From: Acidimicrobiia bacterium
GTDB lineage: Bacteria > Actinomycetota > Acidimicrobiia > Spongiisociales > UBA5794
Assembly: GCA_030066755.1 (NCBI GenBank)
Contig: JASJAX010000036.1
Location: forward strand, 1 to 38,195
Length of the DNA: 38,195 bases
Reading direction: 5' to 3'
The notes beneath the pieces were generated by a model. That model saw only the letters and a list, made by a program, of their open reading frames with translations, did not search any database and had not been told where the DNA came from. Positions within the stretch are counted from its first letter, which is position 1, and the number at the start of each line of letters is the position of its first letter. Shown here in pieces: positions 15,978-18,956 of this stretch. The position numbers and the translations under genes are program-made.

Positions 15978-16967
15978 CTACAGCTTGTTCAGGCCGATGG
16001 CGGTGCGGACTTCTCGCATGTAGTGCTCGGCTTGGGCTTCGGCACGCTCCGCCCCGTCGGCGAGGACCTTCACGATGTCCCCGTCGTCGAGCTCGTTGTA
16101 GCGCTCACGGATCGGCGTGAGTAGGTCGACCAGCGCGTCGGCAACGGCGAGTTTGAAGGTGCCGTACCCGCTATCGCCGAACTCGGCAACGAGATCGTCG
16201 ATCGACCGTCCGGTGGCGGCGGACATGATCTCGAGCAGATTGGAGATCCCGGCCTTGTGCTCGGGGTCGTAGCGCACGGTCGGCTCGGAGTCGGTCATGG
16301 CCGATTTGATGCGCTTCACGACCACATCCGGCGGATCGACGATGCCCACGCGGCTCCGCACGTTCTCGTCGGACTTGGACATCTTGGAGGTCGGGTCAGC
16401 GAGCGACATCACTCGCGCCGCCGTCTCCGGGATGAGCGGTTCCGGGATCGGGAAGATGTCGCCGTACCGGTTGTTGAAGCGCTCGGCGAGATCGCGGGTC
16501 ATCTCGAGGTGCTGCTTCTGATCGTCGCCGACCGGAACCAGATTGGCGCGATGGATCAGGATGTCCGCAGCCATGAGGACCGGATACGAGAACAAGCCGA
16601 GGTTGGCGGCATGGCCTTGCGCCAACCGGTCCTTGTACTGCGTCATCCGATTGAGCACGCCCATGGGGGTCATCACTCCGAGGAGCCACGACAGCTCGGC
16701 ATGCTGCGGCACGTAGCTCTGTGCATAGACCAGCGCCCGCTCGGGGTCGATGCCCGTAGCGAGCAGCACCTTGGCCCCGGCGATGCGGTTGCGCCTCAGG
16801 TCATCGGGATCCTGGGGCAAGGTGATGGCGTGCTGATCGACGATGCAGTAGATCGTGTCGTACTCGTCCTGGAGACGTACCCAGTTGCGGAAGGCACCGA
16901 GGTAGGTACCGATGTGCATCTCCCCGGTGGGTTGCACTCCCGAGAAGACCCGTTGCTTCGTGCTCAA
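15978..16967 (-). CDS. trpS: Tryptophanyl-tRNA synthetase
   Basis: RVFSGVQPTGEMHIGTYLGAFRNWV; DPTSKMSKSDENVRSRVGIVD (KMSKS). Confidence 0.98.
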   Translation of the reverse strand: MSTKQRVFSGVQPTGEMHIGTYLGAFRNWVRLQDEYDTIYCIVDQHAITLPQDPDDLRRNRIAGAKVLLATGIDPERALVYAQSYVPQHAELSWLLGVMTPMGVLNRMTQYKDRLAQGHAANLGLFSYPVLMAADILIHRANLVPVGDDQKQHLEMTRDLAERFNNRYGDIFPIPEPLIPETAARVMSLADPTSKMSKSDENVRSRVGIVDPPDVVVKRIKSAMTDSEPTVRYDPEHKAGISNLLEIMSAATGRSIDDLVAEFGDSGYGTFKLAVADALVDLLTPIRERYNELDDGDIVKVLADGAERAEAQAEHYMREVRTAIGLNKL

Positions 16968-17026: not shown

Positions 17027-17064
17027 CACAAGAAACCGCCGGGGCTGCGAGGAGCCACCGGCGG
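17027..17064 (-). terminator. Intrinsic terminator (3:4 hairpin) of the trpS attenuator
   Basis: Minus strand CCGCCGG-T-GGCT-CCTCGC-AGCC-CCGGCGG followed by TTTCTTGTG. Confidence 0.8.
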
Positions 17065-17086
17065 CGTCACCGCGCGCGAGGTGGCC

Positions 17087-17125
17087 TCAGTTCGGCCAAA
17101 CCCAGCGATCGGTGCGTGCGTTCAT
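17087..17125 (-). CDS. trpS leader peptide MNARTDRWVWPN*
   Basis: ATG AAC GCA CGC ACC GAT CGC TGG GTT TGG CCG AAC TGA on minus strand; two Trp codons; followed by competing hairpins and a terminator. Confidence 0.85.
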   Translation of the reverse strand: MNARTDRWVWPN

Positions 17126-17179: not shown

Positions 17180-17208
17180 TTGACGGCCACCGACGCCCCC
17201 GGCATACT
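17180..17208 (+). promoter_or_regulatory. Candidate promoter for the cimA leader
   Basis: TTGACG (17180-17185) - 17 nt - CATACT (17203-17208), 7 nt before the leader ATG at 17216. Confidence 0.5.
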
Positions 17209-17215
17209 GCCCGCC

Positions 17216-17254
17216 ATGGTGAGTATCGCCGGCAACGGCATCGAGATTACGTAG
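17216..17254 (+). CDS. Candidate cimA leader peptide MVSIAGNGIEIT*
   Basis: ATG GTG AGT ATC GCC GGC AAC GGC ATC GAG ATT ACG TAG; three Ile codons and one Val in 12; precedes an isoleucine-pathway gene and a hairpin with a T-rich tail. Confidence 0.65.
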   Translation: MVSIAGNGIEIT

Positions 17255-17288
17255 GCGTACATGCCGCTCGAGCGGCGTGTACGCCGCT
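17254..17288 (+). promoter_or_regulatory. Alternative hairpins in the cimA leader
   Basis: 17254-17268 pairs with 17271-17285 (15 bp, one G-T wobble); 17271-17277 (AGCGGCG) can instead pair with 17282-17288 (CGCCGCT). Confidence 0.6.
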
Positions 17289-17291
17289 GCG

Positions 17292-17316
17292 ACCCTCCGG
17301 AGACGGAGGGTTTCTC
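17292..17316 (+). terminator. Candidate intrinsic terminator upstream of cimA
   Basis: ACCCTCCG-GAGA-CGGAGGGT followed by TTCTC. Confidence 0.65.
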
Positions 17317-17333
17317 ATTGCTCAGGACCACCC

Positions 17334-17368
17334 AGCCGCCAGCCGATACCACGTAGCCAGGAGCCAGC
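17334..17368 (+). repeat. Degenerate heptad array H abutting the cimA start codon
   Basis: AGCCGCC AGCCGAT ACCACGT AGCCAGG AGCCAGC, then C ATG (17370). Confidence 0.6.
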
Positions 17369-17369
17369 C

Positions 17370-18956
17370 ATGACGACCCCCCGAGTCGAGATCTACGACA
17401 CCACGTTGCGCGACGGGACCCAACAGGAAGGGATCTCGTTGACCGCAGGCGACAAGCTCGAAGTCGCGCGCCTGCTCGATCAGCTCGGGGTGGCCTACAT
17501 CGAAGGCGGCTGGCCGGGCGCCAACCCGAAGGACGACGAATTCTTCCGGCGCGCCCAAACCGAGCTGAAGCTCGAGACGTCGACGTTGGTCGCATTCGGA
17601 AGTACCCGCCGAGCCAACACCAATCCCGCCGACGACGAGCAGCTCGCAGCCCTCCTGGCCGCCGAGACGGACGTGATCTGCCTGGTCGGCAAGTCGTGGG
17701 ATTACCACGTCGAACACGCGCTCCGGACCTCACCGGCCGAGGCCGTTGCGATGGTGGCCGACTCGATCGAGTATCTCCGCAGTCAAGGTCGCCAGGTGTT
17801 CTTCGACGCAGAGCACTTCTTCGACGGCTACCGGGCCAACCCGGACTTCGCCGCAGCCGTGCTCCAGGCCGCCCACGAGTCCGGGGCCGAGCGTCTCGTC
17901 CTATGCGACACGAACGGTGGGTTCCTCGCCCACGAGGTCGAGCGGATCGTCGGCGAAATGACCGACCGGATCCCCGATGCAGTATTCGGGTGCCACTTCC
18001 ACAACGACTCGGGGATGGCAGTCGGCAATTCGCTGACTGCGGTCCGTACCGGCGTGTATCAGGTGCAGGGATGTATCAACGGCTACGGCGAACGCACCGG
18101 CAACGCCGACCTGTGCTCGGTGATCCCCAACCTCGCCCTCAAGATGGGCTACGAGGTCATCCCCGAAGGCCACCTGCCGCACCTCACCCGGGTTTCCCAT
18201 CACCTCTCGGAGATCGTGAACCTCACCCTCGATCCCCATCTCCCCTACGTCGGAGTGTCGGCGTTCACCCACAAGGCCGGGCTGCACACGTCGGCACTGG
18301 CCCGCCGGCCCGATGCCTACGAGCACCTCAACCCCGACTCGATCGGAAACGCCACCCGGGTCGTGGTGTCCGAGCTGGCCGGTCGGTCGACGGTGCTCGC
18401 CAAAGCCGAAGCCCAGGGTCTCGAACTCACCGCCGAGGATGCGCAAGCCGTTGTGGACCGCATCAAGGAGCTCGAGCACGACGGGTACCAGTTCGAGGCA
18501 GCCGATGGGTCGTTCGAGCTCCTCCTGCGCGAGGTGCAGGGATGGACTCAGCCCTTCTTCGAACTCGAGTCGTATCGGGTGTTCGTCGAGCAGCGAGCTG
18601 GTGAGGTCGTGGCCGAGGCCACGGTCAAGGTCCACGTCGCCGGAGAACGGATGGTCACCACGAAGGAGGGCGACGGCCCGGTGTCGGCGCTCGACCGGGC
18701 GCTCCGCGCTGCGTTGCGCACGGCGTACCCCCAGATCGACCGCATGCGGTTGGTCGACTACCGCGTGCGGGACCTCGACTCGTCGGATGGCACATCAGCG
18801 CGAGTCCGGGTTCTGATCGAGCACGCCGACGTGGGCGCGCAATGGGGCACCGTCGGTGTGCACGAGAACATCATCGATGCATCATGGAAGGCCCTCGCCG
18901 AAGGTGTGGTCATCGGTCTGCTGCGGTATGAAGAGCGAAACGGGAACTCGGCCTGA
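17370..18956 (+). CDS. cimA: Citramalate synthase
   Basis: VEIYDTTLRDGTQQEGISLTAGDKLEVARLLDQLGVAYIEGGWPGANPKD is a cimA hallmark; C-terminal LeuA allosteric domain; start at ATG 17370 rather than the track's 17277. Confidence 0.95.
   Translation: MTTPRVEIYDTTLRDGTQQEGISLTAGDKLEVARLLDQLGVAYIEGGWPGANPKDDEFFRRAQTELKLETSTLVAFGSTRRANTNPADDEQLAALLAAETDVICLVGKSWDYHVEHALRTSPAEAVAMVADSIEYLRSQGRQVFFDAEHFFDGYRANPDFAAAVLQAAHESGAERLVLCDTNGGFLAHEVERIVGEMTDRIPDAVFGCHFHNDSGMAVGNSLTAVRTGVYQVQGCINGYGERTGNADLCSVIPNLALKMGYEVIPEGHLPHLTRVSHHLSEIVNLTLDPHLPYVGVSAFTHKAGLHTSALARRPDAYEHLNPDSIGNATRVVVSELAGRSTVLAKAEAQGLELTAEDAQAVVDRIKELEHDGYQFEAADGSFELLLREVQGWTQPFFELESYRVFVEQRAGEVVAEATVKVHVAGERMVTTKEGDGPVSALDRALRAALRTAYPQIDRMRLVDYRVRDLDSSDGTSARVRVLIEHADVGAQWGTVGVHENIIDASWKALAEGVVIGLLRYEERNGNSA

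Follow-up and report, generated by a model that had tools for sequence, protein, structure and literature searches.

What kind of signal lies ahead of cimA where this gene stands back to back with trpS in an Acidimicrobiia genome? We addressed this in one contig of 38,195 nucleotides (the window; JASJAX010000036.1), in which the divergent pair trpS (minus strand, 15978-16967; tryptophan--tRNA ligase) and cimA (plus strand, 17370..18956) flanks a leader whose parts follow in plus-strand order: a promoter, a mini-ORF, a hairpin (A), a terminator hairpin (T) and an AGGAG (17359..17363, plus strand), six bases 5' of cimA and likely its Shine-Dalgarno sequence. A first-pass annotation of the same DNA had proposed a branched-chain attenuator at this site that responds to Ile or Val. 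Its identification of the putative controlled gene is borne out, as the cimA product, an enzyme at the entry to isoleucine synthesis, scores 681 bits against the citramalate synthase model of NCBIfam (TIGR00977; cut-off 450). Upstream of the cimA start, the same frame stays open through T back to a GTG at 17277 (17277-17369; the extended ORF has 559 aa), and an automatic gene caller could therefore set the start too early and hide the leader.

A scan for sigma-70-like sites found one in 1.2 kb, where 0.1 would be expected. It consists of a -35 TTGACG, a 17-nt spacer and a -10 CATACT (17180..17208, plus strand), and is a feature missing from the first-pass annotation. The leader-peptide ORF, MVSIAGNGIEIT (17216..17254, plus strand), begins with an ATG eight bases 3' of the -10. 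From this promoter position, transcription would start at the ATG or a few bases off, and the ORF is thus apparently leaderless. Among 47 cimA leaders, the -10 CATACT is found in 37, a -35 with at least five of six matches in 44, and a spacing of 17 in 42. The start codon of cimA leaders mostly lies 6-11 nt past the -10, and an SD-like motif precedes the leader ORF in only 2 of 49. Because the start codon is close to the -10 and SD-like motifs are rare, the cimA leader ORFs are probably leaderless or nearly so.

The mini-ORF itself is present as first described, with three Ile codons and one Val codon; its control codons are ATC, ATC and ATT, and its stop is the TAG at 17252-17254. Finding at least three Ile in 11 codons has a chance of ~0.01 at an assumed Ile content of 4.2%, uncorrected for other short ORFs, and the Ile content of this single sequence is a modest case when taken alone. 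The leader in the window is a weak member of its family, with I, I-E-I in place of I-I-I-I and an interrupted T tail.

The whole leader folds at -71.6 kcal/mol (z -4.45), with 0 of 200 shuffles as good. RNAfold places hairpin A at 17254..17285 (plus strand), with a 14-bp stem and a 4-nt loop; a hairpin had been reported at this position with 15 bp, and its location stands while its length does not. In the first pair of A, one partner is the G of the UAG stop codon, and stop-codon position 3 provides the first pair in 107 of 145 elements. An alternative hairpin at 17271-17288, also reported earlier, exists in the window (AGCGGCG-UGUA-CGCCGCU), but across 145 elements this arm has no conserved tendency to fold on itself (z 0.17), and we rejected the idea that the A 3' arm refolds on itself once its 5' arm is masked. 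A spacer of 5 nt (17286..17290, plus strand) separates A from T; it is short in relatives too, and across 145 elements from three gene families it measures 0-7 nt (mean 2.85, sd 1.57). T and its U-rich tail occupy 17291..17320 (plus strand). The hairpin is GACCCTCCG-gaga-CGGAGGGTT (17291-17312), and the tail, TTTCTCATT, has 6 U in 9, against a mean of 5.9 U in 9 nt in 49 related leaders. A simple terminator scan of the window did not flag T; its folding, its U-rich tail and its covariation in relatives confirm the terminator-like GC hairpin that had been read before cimA. The distance from T to cimA is variable (14 to 74 nt).

If these parts form one regulatory element, they should be conserved together. 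cimA is present in 51 of 60 related genomes. A DNA search with the leader reached only a handful of relatives and was too weak on its own; we gathered 80 named cimA loci, mostly from Acidimicrobiia MAGs. A set of 49 non-redundant cimA leaders has identical parts in identical order, with an Ile-rich mini-ORF at the same place, and the attempt to refute the attenuator by finding orthologous leaders that lack an Ile/Val/Leu mini-ORF therefore failed. The peptides of these relatives, such as MRTTPSTIIIIA, MSATIIIIA, MHTITASEIIIP, MTETATTIIIM and MSVATTAIIIID, usually end I-I-I-X-stop; about one third have four consecutive Ile ending exactly one codon before the stop, and nearly all have at least two. 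At the cimA loci without a leader, cimA lies directly 3' of another gene, whose end resembles ilvE.

Both hairpins covary in cimA leaders. In the alignment of 49 sequences, which was not fitted to the structure, 85.6% of cells pair and 17 of 21 pairs have changed on both sides, with 81 double-change cells against 24 in shuffles; no shuffle reached the observed covariation score. In 96 class-wide matches, which have this layout too and whose alignment, being a fit to the structure, is biased in its favour, 91.9% of cells pair, 20 of 21 pairs have changed on both sides, double-change cells number 363 against 104 in shuffles, and the score is 0.588 against 0.200, with 0 of 500 shuffles as high. 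Relatedness inflates these counts, yet slid-partner controls, which keep the relatedness, are far lower. One position of the T 5' arm (17295-17296 region of the window; columns 72/91 of the class-wide alignment) holds a U that faces G as often as A. The pairs there are U-G 44, U-A 31, G-C 10 and C-G 7 class-wide, and U-A 27, U-G 21 and C-G 1 in the 49-leader alignment. Since a C-G pair would be stronger, the retention of the U hints at a further constraint on this arm.

The element is not confined to cimA. A covariance model built from cimA leaders (R1) has matches in 195 of the 296 genomes that represent the class, mostly two per genome, and 95 R1 loci could be sorted by their downstream protein into cimA, leuB or ilvB. 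Elements ahead of leuB stand before a leuB-ilvE-cimA operon in the cases examined (L163, L169, L170). With a second model (R2), the element was located in 68 of 399 genomes across the phylum; the genes that follow it in the matches examined from other classes are ilvB, leuA, leuS, leuB-like and cimA genes. The source genome has three copies, one before cimA (Ile), one before ilvB (C202:7191-7270, L155; leader MTRNGIILVLT) and one before leuS (C91:4553-4630, L323; leader MLQSTNTRLLLT). We rejected a third, weak R1 match in this genome, where a tRNA gene is followed by a terminator (C137), and weak R3 matches on C203, C193, C192 and C200 that are without a control-codon leader; strong matches in the source genome are thus confined to branched-chain amino acid (BCAA) genes. 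In one family of another class (L284, L289, L304, L305, L308), the leaders end VLVLIT or LVLIT, and in L284, L289 and L308 the downstream ORF comprises a small protein (98 aa in L289) that bears the motif GTAEWQ(G/A)PG and has no Pfam match.

The identity of the control codons changes with the downstream gene. Taking positions -5 to -2 before the stop as control positions in the class-wide set, we counted 97 Ile, 2 Val and 0 Leu at 116 positions of cimA leaders; 63 Ile, 39 Val and 1 Leu at 112 positions of leuB leaders; and 39 Val, 38 Leu and 26 Ile at 104 positions of ilvB leaders. Leaders of leuA and leuS have LLLL or LLL runs. The predicted control codons thus match the gene: Ile for cimA, Ile and Val for leuB-ilvE-cimA, Ile, Val and Leu for ilvB, and Leu for leuS and leuA. 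The search model cannot have introduced the Val and Leu codons of the other groups, since its training set consisted of Ile-run leaders alone. ATT, GTA, CTC and CTT are frequent among the control codons, and GTG and CTG are rare, a choice that, judged by the high GC content of these genomes alone, may reflect a preference for rarer codons. Of the Ile/Val sensing proposed at first, the branched-chain part stands; the cimA sensor would be Ile, not Ile/Val.

These comparisons uphold the branched-chain attenuator, with the mini-ORF recurring in orthologous leaders and the codons tracking the gene in three gene families. A predicted short leader ORF carries pathway-matched control codons, and a predicted intrinsic terminator, a covarying GC hairpin with a U-rich tail, lies between this ORF and the first gene. 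We therefore consider it highly probable that the cimA leader is an Ile-sensing, ribosome-mediated transcription attenuator, a judgement that concerns attenuation as such and not the way in which the switch is thrown.

How, then, might a ribosome on the leader ORF control termination? The leading edge of the ribosome footprint lies 10 nt past the A-site codon, and we used this edge to model the masking of A in 145 elements. Predicted masking is 0% with the A site at -6 to -4, 20% at -3, 49% at -2 and 97% at the stop. When the ribosome's share was masked during folding, A formed at 0.97 with the ribosome stalled and at 0.002 with the ribosome at the stop. Thus, given where the control codons, the one spacer residue and the hairpin lie, a stall early in the control run is predicted to free A, and a ribosome at the stop to remove it, which amounts to a ribosome-position-dependent RNA fold ahead of the terminator. 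In the same folding, T formed at 0.975 when the ribosome was stalled (A folded) and at 0.92 when it was released (A masked). As T is predicted equally well in both ribosome states, equilibrium base-pairing does not explain the switch.

A classical attenuator would solve this problem with an antiterminator and a terminator that have one arm in common. We compared duplex energies with those of shuffles and between-species swaps for 18 region pairs in cimA leaders and, class-wide, for 8 region pairs in each of three sets. Neither arm of T had complementarity above shuffles or swaps to the leader ORF, the A 5' arm, loop or 3' arm, or the spacer in cimA, leuB or ilvB leaders; the only two pairs to exceed these controls are A5xA3 and T5xT3 (z near -4). 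A shared-arm antiterminator was accordingly not found, with A x T and ORF x T at shuffle level. The first-pass annotation had found no partner for the terminator 5' arm, and this proves to be a property of the whole family rather than an oversight. One candidate, an A loop that mimics the T 5' arm in the style of ilvB-II, was suggestive in single species and was rejected at z about 0 overall (A-loop x T3: z -0.09, +0.13, +0.26 and -0.16 in four sets).

The neighbouring trpS leader (window 17036-17125, minus strand) looks different. On the minus strand, it has a promoter-like TTGCCA-N17-TAACCT (17160-17132), a leaderless ORF with two Trp codons (MNARTDRWVWPN; 17125-17087) and a terminator hairpin with a U-rich tail (17064-17036); peptides in relatives include MELVGSWWWRQR, MNDLRWWRHDR, MRTNDLGWWRHDR and others. 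Its post-stop segment can pair with the inner half of the terminator 5' arm at -13.9 to -18.9 kcal/mol, with sequences that change across species, whereas the same windows in cimA leaders have a mean of -5.1 kcal/mol. The shuffle z is a poor control for the GC-only trpS segments (mean z -0.56), and we therefore base this contrast on the helix energies and on the sequence changes between species. The trpS antiterminator is apparently classical, and a Trp and an Ile attenuator apparently lie back to back in one intergenic region.

Collectively, our comparisons indicate that the cimA element very probably works like a ribosome-mediated attenuator but without the textbook shared-arm antiterminator. 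An assignment of parts in which the Ile codons would be the sensor, A the gate and T the terminator is well supported by the alignments. We infer that the leader is transcribed and translated, that transcription terminates at T and that A weakens T. In the model that we propose, transcription would begin at the ATG or beside it, with a ribosome then loading directly onto the leaderless ORF. With ample Ile-tRNA, the ribosome would reach the UAG and cover the A 5' arm, T would form, and transcription would stop before cimA; with Ile-tRNA short, the ribosome would stall on the Ile codons, A would fold, T would fail and cimA would be transcribed. The last step may be steric, in that a folded A abutting the base of T would keep the last T pairs open by its bulk. 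Intrinsic termination requires a terminator hairpin to pair down to its base within the RNA exit channel of the polymerase, and an A duplex only a few bases upstream would have to be drawn into this channel and could so block T. We hold this steric hindrance, our best guess for the step and one whose direct support is the short, invariant A-T spacing, only tentatively, as a possibility somewhat short of probable. That Actinomycetota have a whole family of attenuators that switch without competing base pairs, with the stop-codon hairpin as a steric antiterminator, is conceivable and on the doubtful side.

Other readings assign A a different role. It might be a pause or synchronisation hairpin, as trp 1:2 is, with T decided by ribosome-polymerase coupling, NusA/NusG or Rho. 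The geometry of the leader places A where it would hold the polymerase inside the T 5' arm, and a pause would be useful, given how little time is available with a leaderless start and only ~40 nt of leader. However, pausing by itself gives no reason for T to fail during a stall, and models of the Rho type have no need of a T hairpin and a U tail, both of which are strictly conserved; we regard a pausing role as rather unlikely. The attenuator might also be classical after all, its antiterminator having been missed, for instance as a pseudoknot or as a non-canonical or very short helix that joins A or the leader to T. In the descriptions of all well-studied relatives the folds exclude one another (PMC13236596, PMC10272879), the neighbouring trpS leader appears classical, and the U of the T 5' arm pairs with G as often as with A, as if doubly constrained. 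Set against these points, the T arms have no complementarity above shuffles or swaps in the cimA, leuB and ilvB sets, and the cimA helix, at a mean of -5.1 kcal/mol, falls far from the -13.9 to -18.9 kcal/mol of the trpS leaders, which makes a missed antiterminator distinctly unlikely.

A could also bind a regulatory protein or a small molecule, with the leader peptide secondary, and across many families its outer stem does keep both sequence and pairing (GCGCACACG type). Between orders, though, the sequence varies (GGGGCC.. type) while the pairing is kept, and a match of codons to pathway needs translation. Nor did a strict Rfam search of the window at gathering score, with T-box, riboswitch and leader families included, return any match, and a lax search gave chance-level matches only. 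We judge this role of A very improbable. Least credible, to the point that we hardly entertain it, is an absence of regulation, in which a chance mini-ORF happens to precede an ordinary terminator that ends leader or antisense transcripts. The window sequence alone is indeed only moderately unusual, but comparison with relatives decides against chance: class-wide conservation, covariation and the match of codons to pathway already refute this view for the family.

Leader-peptide attenuators of actinobacterial BCAA genes are already known (PMC10272879, PMC13236596, PMC1262725); in the open-access literature searched, we found no report of an attenuator of cimA or citramalate synthase. A close parallel is ilvB1NC of M. 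tuberculosis, where BCAA codons (LVVI) lie near the uORF stop, a ribosome at the stop masks an antitermination hairpin, and an intrinsic terminator precedes the gene (PMC13236596). In that system the folds are described as mutually exclusive and the leader is 166 nt long (PMC13236596), whereas the present element precedes cimA, has an apparently leaderless ORF and has A and T side by side without overlap. Changing LVVI to AAAA in M. tuberculosis ilvB1 abolished regulation and led to low, dose-independent reporter expression (PMC13236596), an experimental precedent for an actinobacterial BCAA attenuator. Codon changes in the Streptomyces coelicolor ilvB leader were reportedly without effect (as cited in PMC1262725), which counts against the attenuator reading. 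Corynebacterium ilvB-II likewise has a BCAA-rich uORF and two stems, P1 and P2, ahead of a BCAA gene, with P2 as the terminator; there, the uORF spans P1, and the P1 loop can pair with the right shoulder of P2 (PMC10272879). In the cimA element, A starts at the stop codon and its loop pairs with T at shuffle level only. For the same phylum, Seliverstov et al. 2005 (PMC1262725) describe candidate actinobacterial ilvB leaders and Streptomyces leuS attenuators in which Ile/Val/Leu or Leu leader peptides are followed by terminators, and leuS is in common with our source genome. Their leuS leaders are described with antiterminators and with no separate stop-codon hairpin, and the text consulted makes no mention of cimA or leuB.

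Further afield, the E. coli trp, his and ilv attenuators also combine control codons, a decision by ribosome position, a post-stop segment that senses it and an intrinsic terminator. Their segment 3 is common to antiterminator and terminator, whereas the hairpins of the cimA element are separate and compatible. The mycobacterial polycysteine uORFs (Canestrari 2020, as cited in PMC13236596) resemble the element in having a leaderless short ORF with a control-codon run ahead of a biosynthetic operon; they differ in being described as acting by translational attenuation, and no terminator for them was found in PMC1262725. In the LEU element, a leuA pseudoknot, the codon run pairs with the Shine-Dalgarno sequence of the gene, whereas in the cimA element a terminator lies between the ORF and that sequence.

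If our reading is correct, a little-studied class of bacteria, together with parts of other classes, would have a coherent BCAA regulon that acts at the RNA level and whose sensor codons can be read from the sequence. The missing antiterminator raises the question of whether a hairpin that merely abuts a terminator can control termination. The cimA/trpS intergenic region would offer a natural side-by-side comparison of this non-pairing design with an apparently classical one.
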